Both the position numbers and the translations under genes were made by a program. Below are positions 23,355 to 62,300 of a DNA stretch of 64,000 bases, piece by piece. The DNA is from Cladocopium goreaui (taxonomy: Eukaryota; Sar; Dinophyceae; Suessiales; Symbiodiniaceae), in assembly GCA_947184155.2 (NCBI GenBank), contig CAMXCT020002078.1, positions 1-64,000 of the forward strand. Direction: 5' to 3'. Position 1 is the first letter of the stretch; every line of letters begins with the position of its first letter. The notes below the pieces were generated by a model. That model saw nothing but the letters and a program-made list of their open reading frames with translations. It did no database searches and had not been told where the DNA came from.

Positions 23355-26300
23355 AAAAGTGGTTTGTGTGTGCGAGCGTTTCTGTGTAAAGATGTTTGTG
23401 TGTAAAAGTGTTTGTGTGTACAAGTGCATCTGTGTAAACGTGTTGTGTGTAAAACCTTCGGTGTGTAAAAGTCTTTGTGTGTAAACGGGTTTGTGTGTAC
23501 GAGTGTTTCTGTGTAAAGATGTTTGTGTGTAAAAGTGATTGCATGTAAAATTGCATCTGTTTAAACGTGTTTGTGTGTCGGAGTGTTTCGGTGGAAAGAT
23601 GTTTGTGTGTAAAAGTGTTTGTGTGTACAAGTGCATCTGTGTAAAAGTGTTTGTGTGTAAAAGCTTTTGTGTGTAAAAGTGTCTCTGTGTAAAAGGGTTT
23701 GGGTGTAAGAGTGTTTCTGTGTGAAGATGTTTGTGTGTAAAAGTGTTTGTGTGTCAAAGTGTCTGTGTGTCAAAGCGTGTGTGTGTAAATGTTTCTGTGT
23801 GTAAAGGTGTCTGTGTGCAAAAGCTTCTGTGTAAAAGCTTCTGTGTGTGTGCAATCTTCTGTGTGTAAAAGCCTCTGGGTGTAAAAGCATCTGTGTGTAA
23901 AAGGTTTTCTGTGTGTAGAAGTGTCTGTGTGTAAAAGCGTCTGTTTGTAAAAGCGTCTGTTTGTAAAAGCTTCTGTGGGTAAAAGTGTCTGTCTGTAAAA
24001 GTGTCTGTGTTTAAAAGCGTCTGTGTAAAAGCGTCTGTGTGTAAAAGCGTCTGTGTGTAAAAGCGTCTGTGTGTAAAAGCGTCTGTGTGTAAAAGCGTCT
24101 GTGTGTAAAAGTCTCTGTGTGCAAAAGCGTCTGTGTGGAAAAGCGTCTGTGTGTAAAAGCGTCTGTGTGTAAAAGCGTCTGTGTGTAAAAGCGTCTGTGT
24201 GTCAAAGCGTCTGTGTGTAAAAGCATCTGTGTGTAAAAGTCTCTGTGTGTAAAAGCGTCTGTGTGTAAAAGCGTCTGTGTGTAAAAGAGCCTATGTGTAA
24301 AAAGAGCCTGTGTGTAAAAAGTGTCTGTGTGTAAAAGCGTCTGTGTGTAAAAGGGTCTGTGTGTAAAAGTGTCTGTGTGTAAAAGCGTCTGTTTGTAAAA
24401 GCGTCTATGTGTAAAAGCGTCTCTGTGTAAAAGCGTCTGTGTGTAAAAGCGTCTATGTGTAAAAGCGTCTGTGTGTAAAAGCGTTTGTGTGTAAAAGCCT
24501 CTGTGTGTAAAAGCCTCTGTGTGTAAAAGCGTCTGTGTGTAAAAGCGTCTGTGTGTAAAAGCGTCTGTGTAAAAAAGCGTCTGTGTGTGTAAAAGCGTCT
24601 GTGTGTAAAAGCGTCTGTGTGTAAAAAAGCGTCTGTGTGTAAAAGCGTCTGTGTGTCAAAGCGTCTGTGTGCAAAAGCGTTTGTGTGTAAAAGTGTCTGT
24701 GTGTAAAAGCGTCTGTGTGTAAAAGCGTTTGTGTGTAAAAGTGTCTGTGTGTAAAAGCGTCTGTGTGTAAAAGCGTCGGTGTGTAAAAGCGTCTGTGTGT
24801 AAAAACGTCTGTGTGTAAAAGAACCTATGTGTAAAAAACGTTTGTGTGTAAAAGCGTCTGTGTGTAAAAGCGTCTGTGTGTAAAAGCGTCTGTGTGTAAA
24901 AGACTCTGTGTGGCAAAGCGTCTGTGTGCAAAAAGCGTTGTAGTGTGTGTGTGTGTGTAAAAGCATCCTCTGTTGTAAAAGCGTCTGTGTGTAAAAGCGT
25001 TTGTGTGTAAAAAGCGTTGTGCGTTTAAAAGCGGTCTGTGTGTACAAGCGTCGTGTGTAGAAGAAACTGTGTGTAAAAGCGTCTGTGTGTAAAAGCTTCT
25101 GTGTGTAAAAGCGTCTGTGTGTAAAAGACTCTGTGTGCAAAAGCGTCTGTGTGCAAAAGCGTGTGTGTGTAAAAGCGTGTGTGTGTAAAAGCGTCTGTGT
25201 GTAAAAGACTCTGTGTGTAAAAGCATCTGTGTGTAAAAGCGTGTGTGTGTGTAAAAGCGTGTGTGTGTGTAAAAGCTTCTGTGTGTAAAAGCCTCTGTGT
25301 GTAAAAGCGTTTGTGTGTAAAAGCGTCTGTGTGTAAAAGCGTCTGTGTGTAAAAGCGTCTGTGTGTAAAAGCGTCTGTGTGTAAAAGCGTCTGTGTGTAA
25401 AAGGCTCTGTGTGTAAAAGCGTCTGTGTGTGTAAAAGTCTCTGTGTGTAAAAGCGTTTGTGTGTAAAAGTGTCTGTGTGTAAAAGCGTCTGTGTGTAAAA
25501 GCGTCTGTGTGTAAAAGTGCTGTGTGTAAAAGGCGCTGTGTGTAAAAGCGTCTGTGTGTAAAAGCGTCTGTGTGTAAAAGAGCCTATGTGTAAAAAGCGT
25601 TTGTGTGTAAAAGCGTCTGTGTGTAAAAGCGTCTGTGTGAAAAAGGTCTGTGTGTAAAAGCGTCTGTGTTGTAAAAGCATCTGTGTGTTAAAAAGTTCTC
25701 TGTTTGTGTTGTATAAAAGGTTGGTGTTGTAAAATGTAAAAGCCTCTGTGTGTAAAAGCCTCTGTGTGTAAAAGCGTCTGTGTGTAAAAGCGTCTGTGTG
25801 TAAAAGCGTCTGTGTGTAAAAGCGTCTGTGTGTAAAAGTCTCTGTGTGCAAAAGCGTCTGTGTGCAAAAGCGTGTGTGTGTAAAAGCATCTGTGTGTAAA
25901 AGCGTCTGTGTGTAAAAGCGTTTGTGTGTAAAAGCGTCTGTGCGTAAAAGCGTCTGTGTGTAAAAGCGTCTGTGTGTAAAAGCAACTGTGTGTAAAAGTC
26001 TCTGTGTGTAAAAGCTTCTGTGTGTAAAAGCGTCTGTGTGTAAAAGACTCTGTGTGCAAAAGCGTCTGTGTGCAAAAGCGTGTGTGTAAAAGCATCTGTG
26101 TGTAAAAGTGTCTGTGTGTAAAAGCGTTTGTGTGTAAAAGCGTCTGTGTGTAAAAGCGTCTGTGTGTAAAAGCGTCTGTGTGTAAAAGCGTCTGTGTGTA
26201 AAAGTCTGTGTGTGTAAAAGCGTCTGTGTGTAAAAGCAACTGTGTGTAAAAGTCTCTGTGTGTAAAAGCGTCTGTGTGTGAAAGCGTCTGTTTGTAAAAT

Positions 26301-27030
26301 CGTCTGCGGGTAAAAGCCTCTGTGTGTAAAAGTCTCTGTGTGTAAAAGCCTCTGTGTGTAAAAGCGTCTGTGTGTAAAAGCGTCTGTGTGTAAAGTCGTC
26401 TGCGGGTAAAAGCCTCTGTGTGTGAAAGTGTTTGTGTGTAAAAGCCTCTGTGTGTGAAAGTGTGTGTGTGTGTAAAAGCATCTGCGTGTAAAAGCGCCTG
26501 TGTGTAAAAGCGTCTGCGTGTAAAAGCATCTGTGTGTAAAAGTGTCTGTGTGTAAAAGCGTCTGTGTGTAAAAGCGTCTCTGTGTAAAAGAGCCTGTCTG
26601 TAAAAAGCGTCTGTGTGTAAAAGCGTCTGTGTGTAAAAGCGTCTGTGTGTAAAAGTGTCTGCGTGTAAAAGCGTCTGTGTGTAAAAGCGTCTATGCGTAA
26701 AAGCGTCTGTGTGTAAAAGCGTCTGTGTGTAAAAGCGTCTGTGTGTAAAAGTCTCTGTGTGCAAAAGCGTCTGTGTGCAAAAGCGTGTGTGTGTGTAAAA
26801 GCATCTGTGTGTAAAAGTGTCTGTGTGTAAAAGCGTCTGTGTGTAAAAGCGTGTGTGTGTGTAAAAGCATCTGTGTGTAAAAGTGTCTGTGTGTGTAAAA
26901 GCGTCTGTGTGTAAAAGTGTTTGTGTGTAAAAGTCTCTGTGGGCAAAATCGTCTGTCTGTAAAAAAGTCTGTGTGTAAAAGTCTCTGTGTGCAAAAGCGT
27001 CTGTCTGTAAAAAGTTCTGTGTATGAAAAA
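23355..27030. repeat. Large 16-bp minisatellite, AAAAGCGTCTGTGTGT
   Basis: About 3.7 kb, or roughly 220-230 units, of AAAAGCGTCTGTGTGT. The left end (23355-24000) is more diverged, using GTGTTTGTGTGTAAA words. Because 48 bp is 16 codons, the reverse strand stays open for over 900 codons of a Thr/His/Phe-rich 16-residue repeat. The coding look follows from the period and lack of stops in the unit; indels shift the frame in places. I do not call a gene. Confidence 0.97.
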
Positions 27031-42720: not shown

Positions 42721-42921
42721 TGTTTTTGTCTCGACCTAATACCTACATAGGTACATGCATGAGTATTGAGCACATTTATATGCGCCTTCAAGGCTCAAGA
42801 AAGAGGTATATAGAGTAACCCTGTAGACAAGCACAGACCGGCAACAGGCTGAGTAAAAGAGTGCTGTCATTGGGGAAGACGCCTTAGCTGATCTTGAAGT
42901 AGACGCTAGGGCCCCTCTTCA
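42721..42921 (+). repeat. Left LTR of the Copia element
   Basis: 201 bp, TG...CA ends. It contains the palindrome TACCTACATAGGTA, a TATATGCGCC region and TATATAGAG, which could serve as core promoter sequence; no transcript start is evident. Confidence 0.95.
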
Positions 42922-42943: not shown

Positions 42944-42978
42944 CTCATTGAGGGTGAGCTCCAGGTAGAGCCCAAGAA

Positions 42979-45900
42979 ATGGCAAGCCATGGCTATGATG
43001 ATGATGACTTCGACATTGTCGATGCAAATGAATGGAACCAATATGACTCTTATGCAATGAGAAGAGCACCCCAGCAAACACAGATTCATATGACGCAACA
43101 GATGACCACAAAGGTTGCTCCAGCCTATGATGGGCGAACCAGCTTCTTTGCTTTTGAGGATGCAATTGATGACTGGTGTGACATTACGGAGTTAGAACCA
43201 GAGAAACGTGGTCCAGCATTGCGCAACAGACTGGAAGGAGATGCTCAACAATACAAGAGGCTATTGGATAGAGAATTACTCAGGGATCCCTATGAAGGAG
43301 TGGCTTATTTCAAAAGATTTCTACGACCTCATTTCATCAAAGGTGCCCAGAACGTGTTCTTATACCGTTTCATGCAGTTCATGAAGTTCAACAGAGGAAC
43401 CATGGATCTTCAGAAGTGGATGACTAGATTTCAACTCACTGGCAATAGACTTATTGAGTCTTGGATGGATTTACTTCCAGAAGTAACAGTGACTAGTCCT
43501 GAAGCAATCCTGTTTGTTCAACAACGACGTCAAGAACATGAACGAGATCAACAAGAGAGAGCTGAAGTAGCAGCAGCCTCAGGAACACCTCATGTAGCTG
43601 TCCCTTGGACAGATGAACTGGCACTAGCGGCATTCAGACAATTTCAGGAAGATCGTAGACAAGTACAGCGACAAGCATTCCCACTGTGTGAAAATTTGCT
43701 AGCATTGATTTTTGTAAGTCTAGCTGACCTGAGTCAAGATCAGAGAAACACACTCACAAGTATCATGACACATCGTGGACGAACCCTCGATCGATACAGC
43801 ATTCAAGAACTACGTGACCTGTTCTTGGAAATGTTTTGCACTACCAAAACAGCAGTTGATAATCCATTGATGCAACCCTCTGGCATGGCACAGAGAAGAT
43901 CTTCCCTCGTACTGGATGAAGGTGAATTAGAAGGAACCGACGGCTATTGGGCCGAAGATGAAGAAGACGGCGCAGAAGGATTCCTGGATGCTTTAGAAGA
44001 TGTTTTCTGGGTTTATGATGACGCCAACTTCACATGGTATCAAAGAAGGTTCCAAGGCAAATACATCAGACGAGGTAAAGGTAAAGGAAAGAGAAAAGGA
44101 AAAGGAAAAGGCAGAGGAGGACGAAGGTTCTTCAGATCAAGAAAAGGAAAAGGCCGAGGAAAAAGAAGAAAAGGCCGTGCTCACATGGTGAGTGAAGAAG
44201 ATTATGAAGATGAATGGCAAGATGATGAATGGAATGAAAACTATGACGGCTATTGGGCCGATGATCAAACCTGGAATGAAGGCTATTGGGCCTATGATGA
44301 TTCATACTACATGGATGAGTATGGATATTTCCAGAGGAAAGGAAAAGGAAAAGGAAAAGGAAAGAAAGGCAAGAAAGGCAAGGATGATGATGGAAAAGGA
44401 GGAAAGCCAGGAGATGGAAAAGGCAAGTCGAACTATGTTCAACCTCAGACCACATCAGCTCCTGCCATACAGAATCAACAAACTCAACAAGCTCATTATT
44501 CTTCTGCAGCTTCAAGTTCTGGTCATGGTTTCTTTTCATTTGGAACAACTGAACCAGCACGTGTTGATGTTGCAGAGACAGAGCCAGCTCGTGTTGATGT
44601 TTTGACATCCACGTATTCAGCACAAGATGAACAACGACGCACTCGTCGTGGAGGACAGAACCAACGTGATGCAAGAGCACATCAAAACAGGAGAGAAATG
44701 AAGAGATTCCCTGTTCTGGTTGGAGAAGTTGGTGCACTACGACAAGGTGTACGACAACGTCCAGCTATAGTGCCCAGGCAAGTTGGTCTTCAAGAAGGTG
44801 AGGCTTCATGGAAGCCATTGGCAAAAGGCACTTCCTTGTTTTCATATGGATGCTCTACAGAGATAGAGGAACCATCACAGCAGAGTGCTTTTTCATTTCA
44901 TACTGTACAAACTGATCTGGCATGTGAGAATGGACTAGCTTTTCACACAGAGAATTCTGCACCACCAACTGTGTGTATTCTGGATCTTGGATGCACAAGA
45001 GCTATGGGCTCTCGACGAGCAGTTGAAGCATTTTGCAGATATGTTGACTCACATCCCAACAGTGGACTCTGGTATGAAATTCAGCCAACAAGTTCAAGAT
45101 TTTTCTTTGCAAACTCACAACAATCAAAATGTACTGAGAAGCTCGTGATATTCATGTATGATCATGGATGGAACACTCAGTTTACAGAATTCGACATTGT
45201 CGAAGAAGGTGATGTCCCATTGTTGATGTCACTTCCACAGATAAGAAACCTTGGATTTCAATTTGAACTTACTCCAGAGAAGGCTTATTTGTCCTGTGCA
45301 CGTATTGGCATGAGAAAAATGGTTTTGAGGACAGCCATCAGTACTCATCTCATTCTCGACCTACAAGATGTAGCATGGTACATGAGCCAAGTTCATTTCA
45401 AGACTCCACAAGTCAAAAGTTTCTATTCACAACACGATCACTTTGAGTACAGTCAGATTGCTGTCAAACAAGATGATCATGAAGGAGAAGCTTTGGTGAC
45501 TGGTGACTACTGGCAGGTTGATCCACTACGTCGTGAACTCATCAGGCACCACAAGGACAAGAGAATGAACTTACATGAGATGACTCGATCAGAGAAAACT
45601 CCAATTCCAAAAGATCAACTTCTTGATGAGAGAGAAACCCACATGGAATTCCAGAAGAGCAAGAAGAAGGTTCTTCACAAGGACAACTGGCGCACAGAAA
45701 GGAAGAGGTTTTCTGAACAGAGTGAAGAGTTCTGGAAGGGCAAGACCATCTACAAGATCAAGGAGGACTACGTGATCCCAGATGACATTGTCAGAAGTGA
45801 CATTGATCGTGCAAAGCCCTTTCGTGGAAACATTGATGATCTTTTTCACCCTGAGTCAGCCTCTTCAATGCCATCAGGTGTACAGAAGAAGAAGCCAAGC

Positions 45901-48900
45901 TCCTTAAAGAAGGAGGAAGGCAAACCGATTTCAAATGGACCAGGCTCGAAAAAGATTGAGGTAGGTCCACCTGCAGCCAAAAGACACGTAGGTAAGCAGA
46001 AACCTCAGGTTGTCGATGACTCTCAATCAGGTTCATCAAGAAAGAAGGTTGTTGTCTCCTATCCCAAGCTTGATGAGGAAGATGAACTGGACATAAGAGC
46101 TAGGGAATTAGGTTTGGACAAGATTGATTCAGATGAACCTCAAGTCATTGAACCAAAACATTCTGCACCTGCGCGCAACCGTGGTAAGCAAGATTCAGAA
46201 AGTCAAGTTGAGAAACTAGGTAGTGATGCTCTTGAGCCTAGGCGAGTTTCGATTCCACTGCCTGGTAGTGAAGTGCAAGCCATGACACCAGCATACAGAA
46301 AGATGCTCAGGAAACTGGAGGATAGTGTGGAACTTTACAAACTTCACATTAAACACTATCACATGTCTCCTACTCAATTCAGACGAAGGACTTCCATGTT
46401 AGGACTTCCTGACTCTGTTTATCAGAAGTATGAGGAGATGTACAACAAGTGTCGTGTGTGTAGTACTTCAATTGCCCCACCGCCACGAGCCAGAATTTCA
46501 GGCATACGATCCACCAACTTTGGAGATGTTATCTTTGTTGATCATGCTGAAATTCAGTTGAGGAAGAATAAGTACATGGTGTTGCTTGTTCTTGATGGTG
46601 CAACCAACTTACTTTGGGCTACGGCACAAAACTCACTGAACAACAAGGAGACCATTCAGGCTCTAAGGTTGTGGAGTGATGAACACAATTGTATGCCTAA
46701 AGCCCATCGTGGGTGATGAAGCTTTCTTTCAAGAAGACTTTCTGACTTATTACCGAACTCATGGTATCAAAGAATGTCCCTGTGGTTCAAGAACCCCATG
46801 GCCTAACAGAGCTGAATCAGCTGTTAGACTTTTCAAACGACAATGGCAAATCATGTCCAAGAACCTTGAAGATGATAGGTTCAGAGGAATCACCATCAGA
46901 GAAGCTGTGAAGCGTACTGTTTGGGCCAGAAACACTCAACTCACTGTTAGTGGTTATTCTCCTTTGGAAATTGCCACTGGTAGAAGACCACCAGATCTTC
47001 TGGATATTGAGACTTCTGATCCTGCTCAACTTAGTGTTGATCCTTTACCTGAAGACAAAACACAACTCGAGTTGCAAAGGTTAGCACTGAGGGCACATCA
47101 GGAAGCCAGACAAGCTGCTGACCTCAGACATGACATGGCCAAACGAACAATGCCATCAGATGGACCTTACAAACCAGGTGAAAGGTTTTCGTTTGGAGTT
47201 CCCCTGTCAATGCTAATGCTATTGCTTCAAAGGCATGGAAGAAGGAAAGATGGATCAGAGGTACTGTTATCTCTCAAGAAGGTGCTATGGTCAATGTTCA
47301 TGTTGACAACGCAGTCATGCGTGTTAATCAATCGAAGGTGAGACGTGACCATGATGAATGGCATGATGTTGCTGTTCCTGGACTTGACACATCAGAACCT
47401 GTTCCACTTGCAGTTGAAGATGAAGATGACTATGAACCAGATATCGCTGAATATGCTGAAGCATACTTAGGTGAACAGGCTCACTGGTTTTGTCAAACTG
47501 GCAAGTGTGATGTTGTGGAACTTTTCAGTAGCAACACTGGTCTTAGTTGGCACATGGCACGATTGAACATGAAGGTTGGTGAACCCATTGACCACAAGCA
47601 TGGTTGGAGTTTCAACAGTAAAAAGAAACAAAACCAAGTTTGGAAACAACTTGAGAATCTTGATCCTGAATACGTGTTGATCACAAATCCTTCACCAAAT
47701 TCCTGGAAATACTCGGTATTCAAGTTTTGCCTTGATGTGATGAAATGGCAAGTTGACCGAGGAAAAGGTTTCTTGGTGATTGCACCACCTGATTCAGGAT
47801 TTGCTCAGTTTTTGGCTTGGAAGAAATTTCAGAAGGACAGAATCAAGTATCACATTGGTTGTTTCAACCTTGACATGACAAATTACTGTCGTTGTGATCC
47901 TTCAATCAAGAACTTGCGTGTGTATTACAATCATGATGAAGACTTTGACATGTTGGAACCACAGCATGCCTTCAATAGAGAAGGGAAGCTTTGGAATGAT
48001 CCACAATGGAAGGTCTTACCATCTTACTTGTGTTCATTCATTGCGCAGTTCACACAGCTTGTACCCTTGCAGAACATGAGACAATGTTTCTTGTTTGAAG
48101 ATCTGTTGGAACATTTTGATGATGGAGCATTGTGTGGCACGTCAATGTTTTTGGACCGTGAACCTGAGTGCTCATGTTTGTTGCAAGACTTGCATAATGT
48201 TGAGACCTCGATTCCAGTGCCGTTGAAGCACATCCTTCCACAGAGGTTTACCACTCAGTTACTTGTTCAAACATTGAGAAAGATTGATCAGTTGCCAAGG
48301 AGTACAGAGGCTAGTGTCAGAGAATCAACTGACCCCAGAATCATTGAACTGATTCCTGGACTTCAAGATGTCAGAAAGAAGACATTGCCTCAAATGTACT
48401 TTGAAGATTGCAGTGTGTTCAGAGGAACTTATGGAAGAGTGAATCCTTTGTTTCAACATCCTGAAGATGCTGTCTTACTCATTTGGAAACCTGGTGACTA
48501 TGATCATGTTTACTTCATGTTTGTGTCACAGTTGTATCCACATCATGAACAGTTCAAAATCCATGAATGGAGTATGATCGTCTTTTCACGAGAAACGACT
48601 GGTGCTATCAAAAGGAGAGTTGAAGATCCTCCTAGTTCAAGTAGCACACCACCAAATGGTGACGATCCCATTCATCCAGATCAGCATGGTGATGTTCCAC
48701 CAAATGATGATGAGATGTTGAGTGGTGATGAACCAGATGATCCTCTGGATGATGATAATCAACCTGATTATAATACTGGACCTGATCCAGGTGATGATGA
48801 TGATCAAGAGTACATCATTCCAGATGATTATGGACCACCACCTGATGATGATTTGGATATGCCAGGAATACAGGACTCGGGGGAAACACATCAACCAAGT

Positions 48901-51147
48901 TCACCATCAACTCCGTTTTCCAATCCTGACATTCCCATCGAAGAGATTGCTGATCCTGGACAAGATGATGATTCTCCACCAGGACCTGATCCAACGTCAG
49001 AGCCTATCAGAGTTCAAAGGAAACAGAGACAGATCTCAACTGATTCTACTGATGCTTTACCAAAGGCAAAGGCAAAGGTGATTATCAAGAGGCCAAAGGT
49101 TCAATTACCAGGTCATGTTCAGCCAATTTCAGTTCCTACTCAGAAACCTCATGAAGATGAAGATGAAGGACCTTCACATGATCCTACTGCCTCAAGTTCA
49201 CATGATAATACAATTCCATTGCCTACTACTACACCAACATCGTTTACGCCAGGTGACTTTGCGCAGCCAGCGCAACAGCAGTCTTCACAAGGAACACCAT
49301 TGGTATCATCACAACATGATGATGATGAAACAGAACCATATGAAACAGACGACACTCCTGTTTTGACTGAGGATGACATTGCTCAGCTTCAGGAAGAAGA
49401 TGTGGACACTGAATCTTACACATCAGACCACTCTCATTTTGTCGATGTTGATGGTACTGTTTTCGTTCCTTTAGGACCAAAGGTCCAAGCTGCACCTGAG
49501 TTTGGTTCATACGATGTTACTGGATTCAAACAGTTTGAACAGTATCTTGCCAAGAATGGAAAGAAACAGCCAAAGGCAGAATCAGTTATCACTCAAGAAG
49601 TCTTGAGAAAGTATGCTAAGGAGATCAAACAAGCCAAGCTTGAAGAATTCAGAAGTTTTCTGGATTTCACTGCCATGACTTTCAGAGACAAGAGACGTCA
49701 TAAGATTGATAACTATGTCACTGGCAGATGGGTGCTTACAATCAAGGTTGATAAGGATGGACAGTTCAAGAAGTTCAAGGCTAGATGGGTATGTAGAGGC
49801 TTTCAAGATGCTCAAAAGTATGACTTACAGACTGACAGTCCTACTGCCACCAGGTATGGTTTTCGTGTGGCATCTCAGCATGCAGCCTCGATGTACTGGG
49901 ATTTACTCCATTTAGACTTGAAAACTGCCTTCCTTCAGGGGGAAACATTCGACTTAGACCGCCGCGTTATCCATGTTCAGTTGCCTACTGACATTGGTTT
50001 GCCTCCTTACTTGGTTGGTTTGTGCACTCGTTCCGTCTATGGACTTGCGGACGCACCACGTAGATGGGGGAACCGCCTTGACAAATTTCTGATTTCGCTT
50101 GGTATTCAACCAACAAGAGCTGACAGGTGTACATATGTATGCTATGATGGTGCTTTTAAGGAGCCAAAACAGGTTAGCTTTGCTGACTCTGAGGCAACAG
50201 AACCAGCACCTGTGACATACTACGTAAGCTCACAAGACGGTGAGGAAACGCGTGATGAATCCTCCGACATTGCTGAGGAAGTTCATAAGTCTCTTTTGGT
50301 TGAAGAAAGATTGTTTTCAGCTTGCTATCAACAAACCCAAACATGGAAACAGAGAAAAGAGTTCAAGGAGAAGAAGGTTGAAGATTGTGCTTGGACTCCT
50401 GTTGTTGATGAAACTTTGTTGAAGTTTTTGGAATCTGTTGAACACAAGTCTGGTTGGTATCCCTTTGAAAATGGTCATGCTCAAGTTGCCTATCGTGCAA
50501 AAGCTTTGAGAACTCCTGATTCACATTATGATCGAAAGAAGTTTCACTTGAGAACTTCTATTGTGAAGAGGAAAGGAGTCTGGTGGTTGCTTGAGATGAA
50601 TCATGACATGAACAAGAACAATGTTTCCATAAGTTTGGAAGAAGAAGCTGAAGTACTTGTTTCAGTCTTCTTACCTTCAGAGCGTACTTATCTTGCCACG
50701 ACACCACAGTTGACACCTGAGATTGTTGAACAACTCTTGGAACACTTCATGGACCCTGTGAATGGCAGTAATGCCAAGGGAAGAAAACCTATTGGCATGT
50801 GTTGTTTGCATGTTGACGACTTGTTCATTACTGGAACTCCAGAGTTTCTGGAGAAGTTCAAGAAAGTTGTCAAGTCACAATTCAAGATTGGTCATGAAGA
50901 TGTGAATGACTTGATGTTCACTGGTCAACGTGTGAAATGGATCATTGATGAAAAGACCAAGAAGAAATCACACATCACTGTTGAACAATCACTTTGCGTC
51001 AGTGAACTTACTGAGGTTGTCATACCAAAAGGTTTGAAGGATGAAGACAAATGTGACAAGGATCTCCACACTGCCTATAGATCACTCTTAGGTAGTACCA
51101 ATTGGTTACAATCAAGAACTCAATTTCAGTCGTGTTATCAGTTTTCA
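42979..51147 (+). CDS. Copia Gag-Pol polyprotein, two one-base frame changes, ends in assembly gap
   Basis: Start ATG 42979 lies 57 bp after the LTR. The gag part (to about 44900) has an acidic start, a capsid-like helical region (includes VAYFKRFLRPHFIKGAQNVF) and lysine/glycine tracts (KGKGKRKGKGKG) that may bind RNA in place of a CCHC knuckle, which I do not see. Protease: ILDLGCTRAMGSR at about 44977. Integrase: HIKHYH and CRVC zinc ligands, then catalytic D (46540), D (46715) and E (46814). A Rossmann-like methyltransferase-type segment is at 47490-47850. The acidic proline-rich linker is 48600-49400. Reverse transcriptase: ARWVCRGF, DLKTAFLQGE, YGLADAPRRWG and HVDD (50815-50820). The frame shifts at 46703-46705 (CCC) and back at 47186-47189 (TTTT); removing both would leave one frame. 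These look like sequencing or decay indels, not programmed frameshifts. RNase H is not visible and may lie in the gap. Confidence 0.92.
47490..47850 (+). other. Methyltransferase-like domain inside Copia Pol
   Basis: CDVVELFSSNTGLSWHMARL resembles the SAM-binding start of C5 cytosine methyltransferases (a hydrophobic strand, then F-S/G-G). LITNPSPNSWK sits where the catalytic PC motif would be, but the Pro-Cys is absent, and FLVIAPPDSG matches a later strand. Cytosine methyltransferases captured by dinoflagellate Copia elements have been described. I infer a degenerate, probably inactive relative. Could be a different Rossmann fold. Confidence 0.45.
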
Positions 51148-51247
51148 NNNNNNNNNNNNNNNNNNNNNNNNNNNNNNNNNNNNNNNNNNNNNNNNNNNNN
51201 NNNNNNNNNNNNNNNNNNNNNNNNNNNNNNNNNNNNNNNNNNNNNNN
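51148..51247. other. Assembly gap, 100 N
   Basis: Exactly 100 N, the usual placeholder for a gap of unknown size. It falls right after the reverse transcriptase, where the Copia connection/RNase H region and the first part of the Tpt1-like domain should be. The reading frame across it is unknown. Confidence 0.99.
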
Positions 51248-54200
51248 TGATCAGATGCAAGGAGACAATCCAAAGGAATATCACATGTCTGGAGCAGATT
51301 TTGCTGCTATGTTACTGTGTAATCCAAAACAACGTTTCTTTGTTGAGATCTCCATGAGATGGCAGTGGTACCCATATAGCTCAAGGGCAGAGTATCCATT
51401 CGACGTTCGTCTTGGTGCTTTTCAAGGACATAGCAACCAAGTGGTCGATCCCACTGTGGCACACCACCAACTGACATATGATGAGGCTATGAGTTTGGGC
51501 TGGATTTTTCATGTCACTGATTATGAGAATTTAGATTCCATTCAACAATCAGGCCTGAAGACCTTTGTGAAAGGAAGTGGAAAAGGCAGAAGGGATGCAG
51601 TTCACTTCATGTATCACAATGACAATGGTCAGGGCTATATAAGGATGGCAGAGGGCACGAAGCCTCCAAGAAACTATAGGCGACCAGTGTACCTCGTGTT
51701 GGATCCAAGTTTTATTGTGGACAACCAACTCTATCTGACAAAGAATGGTGTCATTTTATTCCATGGTGACATTCCTTTCCAGTACCTTCACGTCAAGGAA
51801 CAACTCCCTACCATTGCATGCAACGTTGTTCATCAAGGACGTGGTCACTCTCTACCTCCATCGGTTACAGGTGGTTCATGGCACACCAACACAACATGGA
51901 ACCATGTCATGAAGGAGAAAGGTCCAACATTTATTCCTGGACAAGACATTCCTGAGGAAGTCAGAATCACAGCATGGGAGTTCATGGGTCAACAGGTTCC
52001 ACAAAACTATGGAAGATTAGTTTTTGGTACACCACTATGCAACGAGAATGACTTTGACCCGATTGTGGAATCAATCTATGGTGCTGCAGCAGAAGGCTCT
52101 CAAGAAAGAGAGGTATCTGCGCAGGCTGATGAAACCATGGAAAATCCATATGAACAACCATCTAGAAGAGGACGCTCTCAAGAAAGAGAGGAACCTCAAG
52201 ATGTATGGGAGCAACAACGCTCCTCATCAGGAAGTCCAGAATCACCACAACATGATGATCCTCAACAAGATGCTCAAGACAATCAACAAGAGGAGCCATC
52301 AGTGGACGTCCATGACGACCCAATGGGTGAAGAGGCTGTCAATCTCTGGGAAGCAGAAGATCCACCAGATGATATCGTAGACCCTGTGGTAGAACAGGCT
52401 ACCAAAAGTTCAATTTCTGCATCGAATCCCTGGGTCCTGTATGAGGCAGGAATTGTCTGTGCAAGAGAAGAGAGCGGTGAACTCATCAAGAACTCCTCAG
52501 GAGAAAAAGTGATAGTTCTGCGTGAATGGAACCTACTACTCTCTTCACAAAAGATAGCACTTCGTAGACAATCCATCACTCGCTCAGATTGGGAGAAATT
52601 ACCATGGACAGGACATCTATGCTTTCTCTTCACAAGAGCTTGGGAGATTGGACGCATGTTGGCACACTTCCATCGAGAAGGAGACATTGACGCCATGGAA
52701 GGTTACATGAACTCTTGTCGACAATATTGGACAGACTGGATGCGAGGTCAAGTTGCCCCAGCAGGTTGGGAAGACAGACACAGTATCAACAGAGACGAAT
52801 GGAGAGAGAAGTTCTTGTTATACGAAAGAGACTTAGCAATACAGAAGGACATGGAGTATCTCTCAGAAGCAGTCTTTGTCTTTTACACCAAGCATCTTGA
52901 TCAGTTCATTAGAGAGAACAACAAACTCTGGGGAAATTTCTGCAGGAGAAAGGAGGACCGTGATGGTAACATTTTGGATGCACTGGAGTTGAACACACAT
53001 GGGTATGACATGACTATCCAAGGAATTACAGTTCCCATGAAAAAGAGAACAGTCATCCCTGAACCTGAACGGCATTTCTCGTTTTCCACAAAGATGATGA
53101 TCATGGCAATCGATCTGTATGAAGATGAAGCACCTGCTAGCTTCAGCCATTTCACAGTTTTTGCTCTGAACAAGCTTCGACAATTTGTGGATAGCAGAAA
53201 GGAATTGACAGCTCAATCCTACAGATTCTTTGTTGAACATGCCTACAATCAATTCTTTCAGCATGAAGCATTCCATCAATCTGCAAGAGCAAGGACAAAG
53301 GTCAGGGAATGCGGTTCAGGTGACTTCCACACATCTACAAAGCTCGATGGCTACATCTGGGTAGCTGGAAAGGACAAGATTGCTCACATCCCAGAATCAG
53401 AGCAACAGAATGTGGACATGGAAGATCACGATGATGATGATGCTGAAGATGATTTGGAGTTTTTGCCAAGACTACAAGTTTTTGTCAGGAAAGAGGAGGA
53501 AAAGGCATCAGGCTCTCAGGAAAGAGAGGAAGAAGGTGTATGCTCTCAAGAAAGAGAGGAAACACAACCACAACAAGAAGATGAGGTATTACCAGATGCA
53601 AATCCTCGAAGAAATATGGAAGATCGACAGGGACTGTTTTTAGTCAGGCAACTCAAACCAGAGCACAGACAGATCCTCCATGATATTACACTTGCAGGCC
53701 AATCAATCCTCACAGGAGATGATCTTGAAGGAGGTCAACCCCTTGAACGTGGTGACATAAGCTTCTTCTCATTATGGTTGATGATGTCGGCATTATCAGA
53801 TGCTTCTTTTTCAACATTTATGGAGCAGTATGCACCTATGATGGGTTATGAGATCTCTTACGACAAGTATCATGAGTTCAAACTGGATATTGACCAAGTT
53901 CTCAAGGAGAATGAACACCTTGGCGCAGAAAATTTCTTTGGAGCAGAGGATCCTGATTTAGTGGACGATGATCCAGACACTCCTCTTCCAGATCTTCAAA
54001 GACCAGGCGCAGGTGATCCTGAGTACAAACATACTATTGAAAGTTTGAACATTGAGGACAAGCATATCATTTTGGAAACTGATGATGACAAATTGGTTGA
54101 GTGTACATTGAAATGGATCAGTATGTGCAATCAGAATGTTCAACGAAAGATCAAGGAAAGTTTTGTCAAACCAGAAGAACGACAAGAGGAAGAAGAGAAA

Positions 54201-56225
54201 GAAGAGGATGAAGATGAGGAGATTGCTGTCGAAGAAGAAGAAGAAGAAAAAGACACACAGGAGCCACATGTCCCAGCTGAAAGCTCTTCAGAGAAAGAGG
54301 AATCAGCTCCACCTGAACGCTCCTCAGAGAAGGAGGAATCAGGGGAGAAGAAAACAGACATTCAAGATGATGAGACAGCTCCTGAAGTGAAACCTGCAAT
54401 TCGACTTTACTATGGTCAAGATATCACTGGAAACGAAGATGATTCAGTTTTTCGAAAATTGAAGGATTGTTTTTCAGATGGTTACCATGGTGAATGGGCA
54501 GGATTTTACAACAAAGGTTATCCAGCGTCTTCGAAGCATCGACACATGTTTTGGCATGTCAAGTACAGAAAGACCATGTCTCCACATCAAGATTATTGGT
54601 ACCATCTTACAGATGACCAGTTGATGGTTGAGTACATTGCCAGACACAAGGATCAAAATCCACAACTAGAATTACAAGAACTCAATCAGCGCATTGAATA
54701 TGGTTGTAGTGATCCTAGGATGCATCCTCTTCATCAAGACAAGGCAGAAAGATCCTCAAAGGAAGCAGAACAGAGGATTGATGACGATTTTGGAAATCTC
54801 ACAAAAGTACTCCAAGATTACGTTGAGGAACACAAGGTCTTGCCTTACTGTATGATTTTGCATAGCTTAGCTTACAGGTACTTAGGTGGAGGCCTATCAG
54901 ACCCAACGTACAAGGATGCTGAATTTCCATACAGATCCTCTCCACAGATAACAGCAATGTTTTGGAATTTGGGAAACTGGTGCAGAAACAGATTTGAAAA
55001 ATGCCCGGTTCCAGAAAGATTTCAACAATTCATTCCACACATTGACTACACCATCGATGAGGATCATGAAAAATTTGATGAAAACAAATCACAGTTCAAC
55101 AATTACTTCATCAACGTCATCAAGAACTTTGGAGGACATCTTTTCATGAATTGCGAGGCTGGTTCATTGTATCCTCACAGAGAAAGACTCAACGAGGTTG
55201 ACTTCAAAACTTGCTTCAATGACTATCATGACTTGATGGTGGCAGCTCGCCTTGGAAAGGATGGCTATATCAAGCAAATTGCTGGATATCACACAGATGA
55301 CAACGACACACGAGTTCGACAAGTCTCATGGGCAATCTTTGAAGTATCTTGGGGAAAGACAAAGGATCGAGATACAGATGAGATTGTTGACTTGACAAGA
55401 GCTAGGATGAGAATGACACGTGTGTGCGTTTATCACGTCGGACAGAAGTATGCATCAGACTCTGCTGGGATTGTTGGTGAGTGCTTAGCTGTTATGGCTT
55501 TTGAGTGTGCCAGATATCAAGTTGACTTCATCGCAGGTGATGGAAACAAGGCATGCTATTACAGCACACCAAAATCTCCAGGTGTCCCTACATACCAACA
55601 CAGCCTTATCCAATTCTGGATCAACAGAATGGTAGGTGTTGCAACACAAGCCATGCGCAAGTATTTTGATTCATCTTGCCCTCCAATCAGGGTCAAGCAT
55701 TTCATTTCTTGCAGTTATCGTGACTTGGATTTTCTTGCAACGCACTTGGATGGCATTACAACAGCAACATACACCGACGAGATCATGAACAAGACACATG
55801 GTAAAGGTGATTGTTGTATGTTAACAGTTGTTGAGTGGGGTCATTCACGTTTGATGTGTGAGGAACGCCCAGAAGACTTTGATGGAGATGAAGATCGCAT
55901 GAACTATGTGGGTGAATTTTACTTCAAGGTAAATGAAACTTGCTTACATGGTGATCACAACATCTTCATGGTTGCCCCAAATGATCGTGATGCTCACAAT
56001 CCAATTCTTGTTCATCTTGATCCTTCTGATATGTCATGGAATGAACGACATCATTACAAACAGGCTTTCAAGAAGAAGCAGTATGCAGATACAAGAAAGG
56101 AAAGACAGAAGGAGAAAAAGAGAAAGGCATATGAAGATCAAGCATCGACGTATCAGGGCAACACAGAGTGGGGTGGATCCTCATCTTCTTCGTCCAGACC
56201 ATGGAGAACAAGCTTTTGGCTATGA
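51248..56225 (+). CDS. Copia Pol extension: Tpt1/KptA-like and EEP-nuclease-like domains
   Basis: One open frame of about 1,660 codons from the gap to TGA 56223-56225, so probably the continuation of Gag-Pol. Order: a Tpt1/KptA-like domain (51290-51830); an acidic glutamine-rich linker with SQEREE repeats; a helical domain of unknown type (about 52410-53370, includes LCFLFTRAWEIGRMLAHFHR); a second acidic linker with more SQEREE; another helical part (53630-53930); a third linker with SSEKEES repeats; and a C-terminal domain (54400-56100) with endonuclease/exonuclease/phosphatase-type motifs. It ends in a basic KERQKEKKRK stretch and a serine run. Expected role: processing of element RNA, cDNA or target DNA during transposition. 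That is inference from domain types. Confidence 0.85.
51290..51830 (+). other. RNA 2'-phosphotransferase (Tpt1/KptA)-like domain
   Basis: Motifs in the order of the Tpt1 family: NPKQRF (51331), matching the conserved KQRF; VRLGAFQGHS (51402), matching the RAxQGHS signature; IFHVTDYENLDSIQQSGL, matching the H-x-T...I...GL strand; HFMYHN, near the HLS position; RRPVYLVLD; and NGVILFHGDIPFQYL, matching the NGVxLxxG...IP signature. Tpt1 enzymes remove an internal 2'-phosphate using NAD+. The upstream LRH motif would lie in the gap, so activity cannot be judged. Confidence 0.72.
54940..56000 (+). other. EEP (DNase I/APE1-type) nuclease-like domain
   Basis: Motifs appear in EEP-superfamily order: FWNLGNW (N at 54966), NCEAG (E at 55155), VCVYHVG (H near 55434), AGDGNK (D 55539, N 55545, matching GDxN), SYRDLDFLATH, and HGDHN (D 55953, H 55956, matching the terminal SDH). 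Spacing between GDGN and GDHN is about 140 residues, which is normal. Similarity is by motif only. Confidence 0.6.
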
Positions 56226-56882
56226 GTGAGTGTATACTTCTTTAAATGAAGATAACACAGCATGAGAAGCCGTGTACAGTTTTTCTGTGCGTTCAACTTA
56301 TTTCACACAAATGGCATATACTCTTTTAGATAGAGATAATGCCACAAGTGTCTGAATCTTGATTTAATGTAAAATAGAGACTCTTGTAAATAGAGATACT
56401 ATATACATTTATCTCCATGAATCATCCTGCGAGCAGACCCATCCGAATGGAGCGAACTCCAAAAACTACCAACTTCGATTTCAGTCCATTGTTTGCTTGA
56501 ATGAGCAACTTTGGAGATCCGCTATTTCCGTTTATTTCGTGATTTGGTCAATTGTTTTTCGTATGACCTGAATTTCTGAATCTTGCGAACCCGAACTTTT
56601 CAATTCGAACTTTCACCGGTAGAGCAAGGCATTTTGCCTATGGAGAGACCGTGCGCGAAGCACCATTGGTCGCTACTGGAAAAATTAGCGAATCCGCTGT
56701 TCTTTTTCGACATGTCCTTAGGACATTCGCTGCTTTCACGTGTTTTTCAATTCGAAGCCACTGCGTAACTCCGGTTTCTTTTGCTATTTGCCATTGTGTA
56801 GAGAAGTCAGGAAGATACTCTTAATACCAATTGGGTACGGCAAGGCGTAGTGCTCTACTCATTGCTTTTGAATTTGTGCCTG
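56226..56882 (+). other. Untranslated region between Pol stop and right LTR
   Basis: 657 bp without a supported gene. It holds repeats of TTTAGATAGAGATA/TGTAAATAGAGATA (56330-56400) and a segment with TGAATCTTGCGAACCCG. No purine run precedes the LTR; the last bases before it are GAATTTGTGCCTG. Confidence 0.7.
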
Positions 56883-57084
56883 TGTTTTTGTTTCGACCTA
56901 ATACCTACATAGGTACATGCATGAGTATTGAGCACATTTATATGCGCCTTCAAGGCTCAAGAAAGAGGTATATAGAGTAACCCTGTAGACAAGCACAGAC
57001 CGGCAACAGGCTGAGTAAAACAAGTGCTGTCATTGGGGAAGACGCCTTAGCTGATCTTGAAGTAGACGCTAGGGCCCCTCTTCA
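56883..57084 (+). repeat. Right LTR of the Copia element
   Basis: 202 bp, colinear with 42721-42921. By eye it differs by one C/T near the start and by a small change at GTAAAACAAGTGC versus GTAAAAGAGTGC. Confidence 0.95.
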
Positions 57085-59105: not shown

Positions 59106-59312
59106 AAGAAGACAACAAAAAATCGCATTTCCTACACACTATCGCCTAACCCAGCCTCTCAGAGTCCTCTCACGAGTGCTTGTTCACGTGCCCATGTTCA
59201 GAAAAAAAGCAGGTACCACAAGGCGGAAGTAAGAGCATGGGAACGTTGACGTAGACGGCTAGGTGTCCGTGTGCCCCTCCCCAAGACGGGGAGCGGTCCG
59301 GTGGCTACGTCG

Positions 59313-62300
59313 ATGCGGTCACCCAGGGCCATCCGTCACAAGCCACAAAAACATCTAGTGCGTCTCAGGGTGGACATGACTAACGTGCCAAGTCAAGAGA
59401 GGGATGTTCCAGGCAATTTGCATAATTATACCACCATGGTCCAACAGTTCCTTGGTACCCTACCCCTGCCCATGGCTGTCTACATGTTAGACTACTACCT
59501 GCCCATGCTCAGTCCCAATGAAGGCTATAATGAAACAGGGTTAACAATGCAAAGAGCAGGACCGGTTCGACAGCCATCACAACCCATTGCCCTCGAGTTC
59601 CTCTTCAAAGGCAGCGAGTTTGGCCACTGGAGAGTCAAAGGCGGACAGGATGCATTCGCATTCCGACATCCAAGCCTTGGTAAAACTGATGTGTTTAGCC
59701 TACTTGCCAGCGATGCGCACCATCACAAAGTCAGCCCCATTGGCACGGGTAGGCTCATCGCCATGGTTGGCACAGCAGAAGCACCAGCTGATGACGGAGA
59801 TGACCTCCAAGTCCTATTTGGTTTGGTCCTCGCCATCACACCGCGTGCAGCCAAAAAGAAGGATGAGCTGGCAGCCTCACGTATATACAGACAATGTAAC
59901 CCTAAATTCATTGAGGTCGCCTTCCTTACCGTACCAGCCATTAAGTTCTTTGCAAAGGAACAGCTTGAAACCCTCCAAGACTTGTACACTGATTCTGGCC
60001 AATGCCTGGACCCTATTGATGCAACAGTCCAGGGGCAAAACAGTCCGGTTCCAAAGGTCTTTTTTCTCCACACAATGTGGATGTTTGGATGTACCAAGCC
60101 CACCCGCGAGCTTACAGCTGTCGCGCAAACCTCCCCGTGCAGGTATCACCTGGGACTAGGCATCTATAATGTCCAAACAGCAGTGGAGGGAATGGAGGGC
60201 AACAAAAGATCACATTTCTTGCATTTGTGCGGTCAGTTGCTGCACCTAGTGCTAACTCCATGTCACGTTGAAGGCGAGCATCACCCCTGGACCCGCTCCA
60301 CAGCGCTATCTTTTGCTGCTGAAATTGATGGACATGTCTTAGGCACACTCTGTGCAGTGACAATGGCTTTGCTCACCAACCGGCTCGATCTGTGCATCCA
60401 AGGGCTCTTCGGAGCAGGCAAGTCGAAATCGATGGCAATCCTTATCCTGGCTCTGATTGAGATCGATACCACCGACAGCCTTAAGATATTGTTCATTTGT
60501 AAAGAGAACTCCGGTACTAGATCTTTTGCTGACCTCCTCCTATGGCTCGACCCCCCGTCGGGGGTGTTTGGGCGCATAGGTAGGCTGGTGGGAGACCAAG
60601 AGCGCAACAAAAGCAGTTACTCCCACACAAAATTTGATATCCACCCCAAAGAAAGAAGGCAAATGTTGCACAAGTGTCAACTAATCTTAGCCACCGGGGG
60701 AACGGTAGCCCAGGATCTTACCATGCAATGGTCCACAATGGGTGGTTTTATGCAAGAGCTCTCCCTCCTGGTCATTGATGAAGGCCAGCAGCATGGCACT
60801 GACCGAGAAATTGCAGTTATCAGCCTGCTAAGGCAGCAACCTCTGGTATTGTGGACAGGAGACTCAGAGCAGACACCCGGCGGCATTGATCGGGCAGCTC
60901 GCAACGCAAAGCGCTCCCGACAACTACTGCTCGCCAAAAGGCATGGCCTGCGAAGCAACCGCAATTATTACACGCCAGCCACCCTTGCCGATGCTATGAC
61001 TCGGCTGCTAGATGGTTCGGCCAATGAAGGTCTGACAACTCTTAGTCAAATTCTCAAACGAGGGCAGTCCACTTTAGGCCGGCTATGGACAAGTCAGCTA
61101 TCGCCAGAGGATGAGGAAGATCTCAAAGTAGCCAGCGCTGTTCTTCCAGGCCTCCAAGCCGTATTTAAAGCAACGCAGCCCACTATGCGGCGACACTCCC
61201 GTTTCGTAGAACCCGGTCTCTTGTGCGCCTTGCCTGGATCTTGCAACATGCCGCTACCCTCCTGCCCATGGCTGGGGACATACAAGCAACCTTAAACTCC
61301 CAAACCGCTGGTGTGAGTGACATCCATACTTGGGGGTTAATGCTTCCCTCCAGTTCCAGAGTTAGTCCTGTGACATACCATGCAGTGGTTGCAGTAAGAT
61401 ACCCCGCTCTCTGCAGACAGGTAAATGGCCTATGGGAACTAGGCAGTTTTGCCTCGGGAGGACTACCAGACAAACCACCAGGGTTTCAGCTAGTGCTTTG
61501 GGATACCAATGCTAGGATTAACGGTTTGGTAGCGACTGACCTAGAGACTCTTGTGTCAGAGGTCCTCACCTCCTTCCCTTGTAATGCTGGATTTGCGGAT
61601 GGACTCTTTACAATGACCACAGCAACTGATCACAAGAACAACTTGAATCGCTCCGTGCTCAAAAGAGACTATGTTCGTACCCTGCGTGTCGAGACAATCG
61701 CCAATTCAGCCGGAGGAACAGCACAGGTATCAATCGTGGCTCAGCCCAGCATTGGTTTTCTCAACACTAAATATTACTCCAATGGCTCTCCTACAGAAGA
61801 TACAGAAGATTGCCTGGGCAGAATCACTGTAGGACTCACCCGGTCCAAATCATTAACCTTGCTAGTCTCACCTCTGGACATGATGGGGCTCATGGGCATG
61901 GCACAGGTGATTGCCACCATCGCCTACGGCATCGGGGGCCTGCGGAGGGGAGAAACGACATGGAAGTGGCCAGATTTTGACCCTGACCCAGTACAAGAGA
62001 ATCTTGCGCAATTAAGCCGTTGGTCACTGAATTCACCACCAAACTGGGAATACCCGCCCCTCGCTATCGCCAACCAATACTACGATCAGCATCAGACCTT
62101 CGCTGGTTGGACAGAGCGCGCTTCCAAGAAATTCAAGCAGGCTTGCGAACCCAACACAAGTAGCTCCCCAGGCAACATCTCCCTTTCTCCGAAGTCGTCC
62201 TATATGCCTATGCTGCTGATCGCACACCCTTTCCCACATACGTGTGCCTACCTTCAGGACTGTATAAAGCACGCACCGGGAATGTAGTAGCGCAGACAGG

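Follow-up and report, generated by a model that had tools for sequence, protein, structure and literature searches.

Enzymes of the Tpt1/KptA family, with which cells complete the repair of RNA, act in two steps, in which a 2'-phosphate is first joined to ADP-ribose and RNA with a 2'-OH is then released. Here we describe a domain of this family in a retrotransposon of Cladocopium goreaui (Dinophyceae), found in a stretch of 64,000 nucleotides (GenBank assembly GCA_947184155.2, contig CAMXCT020002078.1, positions 1 to 64,000 of the forward strand) that is referred to throughout as the window, and in further elements of the same genome. The role of Tpt1 in organisms that have no known source of 2'-phosphates on RNA is treated as an open question (PMC6333775, PMC6582358). 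A survey of 21,191 viral proteomes reports KptA in phages, sawfly nucleopolyhedrosis viruses, Bodo saltans virus and a few RNA viruses; its available text names certain retroviruses with 2H domains, and no retroelement with KptA (PMC9503650). Retrotransposons have taken up other enzymes: a low ratio of nonsynonymous to synonymous substitution (Ka/Ks) is reported for the Gypsy case of the cytosine methyltransferase DNMT (PMC5890265), and the enzyme of the orchid AlkB open reading frame (ORF) is active in vitro (PMC9289625). The terms "phosphotransferase" and "ADP-ribos" occur 0 times in the main text of PMC5890265, and no report of Tpt1 in a retroelement was found among the listed titles and abstract openings of the literature searched, which lies mostly outside subscription journals.

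The window contains a long terminal repeat (LTR) retrotransposon, of Copia type by its reverse transcriptase (RT). Between its Pol stop and its 3' LTR lies an additional ORF, here called ORF2, that carries the Tpt1 domain. From the comparisons given below, we lean slightly towards the view that the domain is a selected, element-borne NAD+-dependent RNA-phosphate enzyme, possibly one that stalls at an ADP-ribosylated intermediate.

A first-pass annotation made from the letters of the window had proposed a Tpt1/KptA-type RNA 2'-phosphotransferase on the basis of the motifs KQRF, GAFQGHS, HVT...GL and NGVILFHG, all of which occur in the order typical of the family, in the frame that is read from 51249. 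The PF01885 profile (PTS_2-RNA), which it had suggested as a check, matches window positions 51249-52100 with E=7.2e-7 and 29.9 bits, over the cut-off of 26, placing the domain in the Tpt1/KptA family; the match covers positions 46-176 of the 177 in the profile. When the whole 1,658-amino-acid stretch of the window is scanned, the score is 25.6 bits, just below the same cut-off. Complete domains from other loci of the genome (L numbers) score 41.5 (L055), 60.7 (L020), 57.7 (L026), 52.6 (L023), 99.7 (L004) and 53.1 bits (L021), all above 26, and the match of L055, a young copy of the window element, spans profile positions 5-176. NCBIfam models for RNA 2'-phosphotransferase match 6/6 element domains (best E from 3e-5 to 2.6e-20), at scores well under the full-length cut-offs of those models. 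A profile built from ten element-only sequences finds solved Tpt1 structures in the PDB (7yw3, E=2.9e-8, and 6e3a, E=8.9e-7); phmmer searches of PDB sequences returned no Tpt1 with the window fragment and no match with L020. Among viral contigs scanned for relatives of the window domain, three stretches fit a pattern and 0 were confirmed. The family assignment of the first-pass annotation therefore stands; its enzyme name exceeds the evidence, because the window subfamily has lost the third Arg of the Arg-His-Arg-Arg tetrad.

The same annotation was right in assigning the domain to the LTR element, whose LTR pair is real (199/202 identity, TG...CA ends). The features of the element are as follows.

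42721..42921, plus strand: 5' LTR, 201 bp, TG...CA, 199/202 identity with the 3' LTR
42958..46716, plus strand: first long ORF; Gag, protease and the start of integrase presumed from position and motifs, 0 Pfam families
46667..47341, plus strand: second frame, integrase region, presumed from a motif, 0 Pfam families
47182..51147, plus strand: Pol ORF as far as the gap, RVT_2 at about 49717-50154
51148..51247, no strand: assembly gap, 100 N in the sequence
51249..56225, plus strand: back part of ORF2 (the extra ORF), frame open from 51249, stop at 56225
51282..51764, plus strand: Tpt1/KptA domain, end of the front lobe and NAD lobe (PF01885; KQRF, GAFQGHS, HVT, RRDAVHF)
51765..56222, plus strand: ORF2 tail, about 1,490 amino acids, no Pfam match
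56866..56882, plus strand: 17-bp direct repeat abutting the 3' LTR, with its twin just past the Pol stop position in ungapped copies
56883..57084, plus strand: 3' LTR, 202 bp, TG...CA, from comparison of the LTR pair

The RVT_2 domain (PF07727) of the window Pol matches with E=5.3e-18 and 65.9 bits against a cut-off of 31.6. In this family, referred to as W, we presume from motifs that the order is integrase before RT and RNase H after it; the integrase of the window and the RNase H of family W have no Pfam match. The window copy shifts frame in the integrase region and is thus probably not intact. A check for a target-site duplication found flanks that are C-rich and not identical.

The assembly gap lies between RT and the Tpt1 domain, and nine more family W loci (L020 and L049-L056) were fetched around this stretch. 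In the ungapped L050, L049 and L020, a single stretch holds RT, RNase H (presumed from its motif), the Pol stop and Tpt1. After the stop come "LFFEFVPA", an N-terminal extension and then the front lobe of Tpt1, which contains VLRH. In ungapped copies, about 1.4 kb take the place of the gap and encode the presumed RNase H, the stop (or a sense codon) and the greater part of the front lobe. In the window copy the place of the front lobe with its Arg-His pair falls in the gap; VLRH is present in the ungapped L049, L050 and L052-L056. Since these relatives join RT and Tpt1, the gap does not link two unrelated loci, a possibility that the first-pass annotation had raised against itself and that is ruled out by the ungapped copies. 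That annotation also had the Tpt1 frame running to the Pol stop. In ungapped copies Pol in fact closes earlier, and the Tpt1 frame is a separate long ORF, which ends at 56225 in the window; Tpt1 as a plain Pol domain was rejected for family W, as a UGA separates the two in 6/8 fetched copies. The stop position could be located in 8/9 fetched loci (the surroundings of L056 are unmatched) and reads TGA in L020, L049, L050, L051, L054 and L055, AGA in L052 and CGA in L053, followed by CTA in 8/8. An exact 37-mer bearing the TGA has 217 matches in the genome, and ORF2, of about 1,890 amino acids, is commonly found among copies as ORFs of 1,883-1,901. UGA CUA is the readthrough consensus in human genes (PMC4359377). 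The RNA after the Pol stop folds no better than its shuffles (z -0.57), leaving a readthrough structure unsupported. Readthrough at UGA-CUA is a hypothesis for the translation of ORF2, for which its own ATG is equally possible.

Searches covered the genome assembly of 1.17 Gb in 6,202 contigs, and counts drawn from scored candidates are lower bounds. With PF01885, 150 of 1,496 candidates were scored, all 150 over the cut-off and three of them cellular. With the window domain, 137 of 504 candidates were scored, and all of them (window included) are 98-100% identical to the window, 136 being free of stops. An exact 33-mer motif of the window in its Gly form has 261 genomic copies, and its reversed control 0. 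The window family has multiplied recently, in a burst.

Of the 150 scored matches, 41 were fetched (3 cellular, 8 of class A, 2 of W, 2 of class D, 25 of family B, and L029, in which a motif search found nothing). They show that further elements of the genome carry the domain, and place it in four element types: W, a second LTR family (B), a DIRS-like class (A) and an unclassified one (D). In subfamily B1, the copies L011/L012 and L027/L028 are bounded by fully identical (100%) LTRs of 170 bp and by 5-bp target repeats (ATATC and ACATC), with a GAGGGGGG tract ahead of the 3' LTR and a single frame of 4,026 codons; in B2, L024/L025 have a single frame of 3,924 codons. RVT_2 in family B reaches 16.1 bits, under the cut-off of 31.6, so the family is filed as an LTR element for which Copia type is only likely, a likeness that we presume from its RNase H motif. 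Almost no BLASTP similarity is seen between the Pol of B and that of W. Class A consists of DIRS-like elements of 12.7-13.5 kb with split direct repeats in the arrangement A-coding-B-A-B (3/3 copies examined), Tpt1 scores of up to about 100 bits, and a weak match to the tyrosine recombinase PF00589 (19.5 bits against 27.1) in one of three C-terminal ORFs. In class D, L021 and L030 are a repeated unit with 97% identity over 2,952 bases. The Tpt1 ORF of L021 is flanked on one side by an ORF with weak RVT_1 (21.3 bits against 29.6) and on the other by an ORF with PLDc_2 (37.2 bits against 27), the latter also having a weak zinc-ribbon match.

The tetrad was compared in an alignment of 21 rows, three cellular and 18 from elements (3 W, 10 B, 3 A and 2 D). 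The full set, R-H-R-R, occurs in the three cellular rows, in two old copies of W (L020 and L051) and in the two rows of class D. L055, a young W copy, reads R-H-G-R, and the window likewise has Gly for the third Arg in GAFQGHS. The B rows read R-G-R-R (10/10) and the class A rows R-H-A-R (3/3), so that a single tetrad residue is lost in 14/18 element rows (1 young W, 10 B and 3 A). The first Arg, the fourth Arg and the H-x-T of the NAD site are invariant in 21/21 rows. Outside the alignment, the class A loci L005, L007 and L014 resemble L004 in the stretches seen.

In three of the four element types, codon comparisons agree with purifying selection on the domain. Ratios of nonsynonymous to synonymous divergence (dN/dS) were computed by the Nei-Gojobori method on pairs that are not independent, from 13 fetched B1 copies, 6 B2, 7 A and 2 D. 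For the B1 domain, dN/dS is 0.029-0.279 in the 66 of 78 pairs that lack L031, and 0.111-0.789 in the 12 pairs with this copy, whose front lobe is divergent. For B2 it is 0.062-0.162 in 14/15 pairs, the remaining pair being saturated. The 21 class A pairs comprise 12 at 0.091-0.333, many with synonymous divergence (dS) over 2, 6 that are saturated, and 3 near-identical pairs at 0.306-0.895 on 2 to 6 changes. For family W, dN/dS is 0.153 in the domain, 0.128 over ORF2 residues 1-716, 0.165 over residues 955-1653 and 0.174 in RT.

Within family W, ORF2 and Pol have different histories, as seen from a contrast in dS and from a drop in identity after the Pol stop. Compared with the older L020, family W has a dS of 0.27 in RT (0.31 in a shorter upstream piece) and of 1.17-1.57 in Tpt1 and the tail, the L020 pieces used holding one stop in RT and two in one tail piece. 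Between L050 and L020, identity mostly ranges over 0.87-0.98 before the Pol stop, although it drops to 0.69 around -590; some 100 bases past the stop it comes down to 0.54-0.68. Directly downstream of the Pol stop position lies a 17-mer that is exact in 7/8 loci and recurs at window positions 56866-56882; among 2,967 random pairs of 60-base element stretches, the longest match is 12. These 17-bp repeats are read as the probable edges of an inserted cassette. None of the 40 scored of 1,317 candidates is an empty cassette site, all stopping at the junction. In a tree of 33 rows (L058 left out), each element class lies on a long branch. A single origin, with the 12 element rows held as one clade, is not rejected (approximately unbiased test, p-AU 0.248), nor is a grouping of W with B (p-AU 0.287); the tree is compatible with one capture as well as with several.

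Two sets of published mutants bear on what the element domains might do. RslTpt1 without the third tetrad Arg carries out step 1 threefold slower and step 2 210-fold slower (PMC6333775), and from these rates arrest at the ADP-ribosylated intermediate is predicted for the young window subfamily and the DIRS-like class A, both of which have lost the third residue. Human TRPT1 with R40A, H41A, R86A or R150A does not ADP-ribosylate 5'-phosphate RNA (PMC6582358), a result that, for the window subfamily, makes 5' capping less likely than action on a 2'-phosphate or some other phosphate of RNA. Under the reading that we lean towards, ORF2 would be made as an extension of Pol through the leaky UGA-CUA, or from its own ATG, and would act on RNA during the life cycle of the element. 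It would use NAD+ to ADP-ribosylate an RNA phosphate, either the 2'-phosphate left by RNA ligation or, alternatively, a terminal phosphate on element RNA, primer tRNA or cDNA, and the families with a full tetrad (old W copies and D) could also remove the 2'-phosphate. The most likely benefit would be that element RNA or its tRNA primer is kept usable after cleavage and ligation, or is marked. The comparisons hint that NAD+-based handling of RNA phosphates may be part of how these elements live. We think it improbable that a fuller version holds in all its parts, by which retroelements of at least three kinds took up Tpt1 and some of them, by separate single tetrad losses, made a one-step RNA ADP-ribosyltransferase that marks element RNA, primer tRNA or cDNA, with family W doing so through UGA-CUA readthrough of an exchanged cassette.

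Several points weigh against an active, selected enzyme. The explanation is drawn from sequence comparison. The human TRPT1 mutants argue against capping by the window version and by the His-lacking B families, and a domain that keeps three of the four residues may have lost its activity and work as a module that binds RNA or NAD. The class A loci L016, L018 and L019, which lie outside the alignment, read HGS for HGT, and the Arg-His stretch is altered or missing in L018 and L019, variation that speaks against strict conservation of the site in this class. The Pfam-scanned ORFs yielded neither an RNA ligase nor a 2H partner. In family W, selection is judged from one pair near saturation (dS 1.53), and the one class D pair, at 0.571 on 17 changes, gives no evidence of selection.

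A rival explanation, which we consider rather unlikely, is counter-defence, in which metal-independent RNases of the host would cut tRNAs or element RNA, and the Tpt1 of the element would help restore them or erase the phosphate signal. Cassettes in conflict are often exchanged, and ORF2 has been swapped with respect to Pol (dS of 1.17-1.57 compared with 0.27). The KptA of jumbo phages and of a few RNA-virus polyproteins is also read as RNA repair (PMC9503650). The scanned ORFs, however, include no ligase, kinase or 2H domain, and dN/dS is low, with pairwise averages that give no sign of diversifying selection. To our knowledge, no such host defence has been described in this lineage.

It is also doubtful that the domain is catalytically silent, with the Tpt1 fold of the window subfamily, B and the DIRS-like class kept as an RNA- or NAD-binding module, for example in RNA packaging. 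The loss of one tetrad residue in 14/18 element rows, the further variation of class A L018 and L019, and the loss of RNA ADP-ribosylation by the human single-residue mutants (PMC6582358) would all agree with silence. Yet loss is limited to the third Arg or the His while the first Arg, fourth Arg and H-x-T stay in the 18 rows, loss of the third Arg spares step 1 in RslTpt1 (PMC6333775), and the tetrad is complete in the old W copies and in class D.

An artefact, in which the gap or a mis-assembly places a cellular Tpt1 gene inside an element, is very improbable: the window gap sits exactly between RT and Tpt1 and the assembly contains bacterial-looking contigs with their own Tpt1 (L002 and L003), but ungapped copies join RT and Tpt1, copies are many, B1 holds Tpt1 within one frame of 4,026 codons that is flanked by identical LTRs and 5-bp target repeats, and L001, the likely gene of the host, differs clearly (178 bits, full tetrad).

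The three cellular loci are L001, L002 and L003. L001, whose 178 bits and full tetrad set it clearly apart from the element domains, has as its best solved relatives 7yw3 and 7yw2, with chains named tRNA 2'-phosphotransferase 1, and looks like the TPT1 of the host itself. L003, on a contig of 7.377 Mb (C1), has 77% identity to a Pirellulales metagenome-assembled genome and is planctomycete by its relatives, and L002 (contig C5523) adjoins planctomycete domains; both look bacterial. Contig C1 could be a complete bacterial genome included in the assembly.

Further observations concern the rest of ORF2, other parts of the elements and the window at large. No accepted match to the ORF2 tail was found in Pfam, NCBIfam or the PDB; a weak hit to MoaE (18.4 bits, where the cut-off is 175) was dismissed as chance. 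The last part of the tail has motifs that may be those of endo/exonuclease-phosphatase folds. What look like degenerate methyltransferase motifs lie ahead of RT at window positions 47434-48600, without Pfam support, and similar ones between RNase H and Tpt1 in L026 of family B. The front of the B1 polyprotein (L009:163-9999, amino acids 635-740) has Torus and CCCH zinc-finger matches over cut-off, domains known from a splicing protein. A spliced-leader relic has 0 matches in the window, and its 14-base part is found in 0/74 loci; this check thus lends the dinoflagellate assignment no support. A 3.6-kb array at 23375-27012 consists of about 225 copies of a 16-bp tandem unit (84% matches), and the long minus-strand ORFs of this region, which overlap one another in several frames, are unlikely to be genes. 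A 681-amino-acid ORF at 59250-61292 has a weak DEAD-helicase match (23.6 bits, cut-off 26).

The element domains resemble cellular Tpt1/KptA/TRPT1 (PF01885) in the motif order KxRF, QGHS, H-x-T, NGV and in a profile score over cut-off, and differ in being part of an ORF of the element that contains insertions and ends in a long tail, and in the tetrad variants R-H-G-R, R-G-R-R and R-H-A-R. Like the KptA of Beihai picorna-like virus, Botrylloides leachii nidovirus and Bodo saltans virus, they are embedded in a long coding frame; viral KptA is rare, whereas here the carriers are reverse-transcribing elements in hundreds of copies (PMC9503650). As with the DNMT retrotransposons of Symbiodinium and Klebsormidium, a nucleic-acid-modifying enzyme has been taken up, and the DIRS elements of Symbiodinium have the same A-coding-B-A-B repeats as class A; DNMT, however, is a cytosine methyltransferase carried by long interspersed nuclear elements (LINE), DIRS and Gypsy elements, Copia being without it (PMC5890265). 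The orchid Ty3/Gypsy elements with an AlkB N6-methyladenosine demethylase are likewise LTR elements with an extra ORF for an RNA-modifying enzyme, although the enzyme, the superfamily and the lineage are others (PMC9289625). If true, the one-step ADP-ribosyltransferase reading would describe a new kind of retroelement RNA mark. Retroelements with a domain that appears selected, in full and altered tetrads, would offer natural variants for probing how Tpt1 acts on RNA, and would extend the few activities that retrotransposons have acquired, such as DNMT and AlkB, by an NAD+-dependent enzyme acting on RNA.

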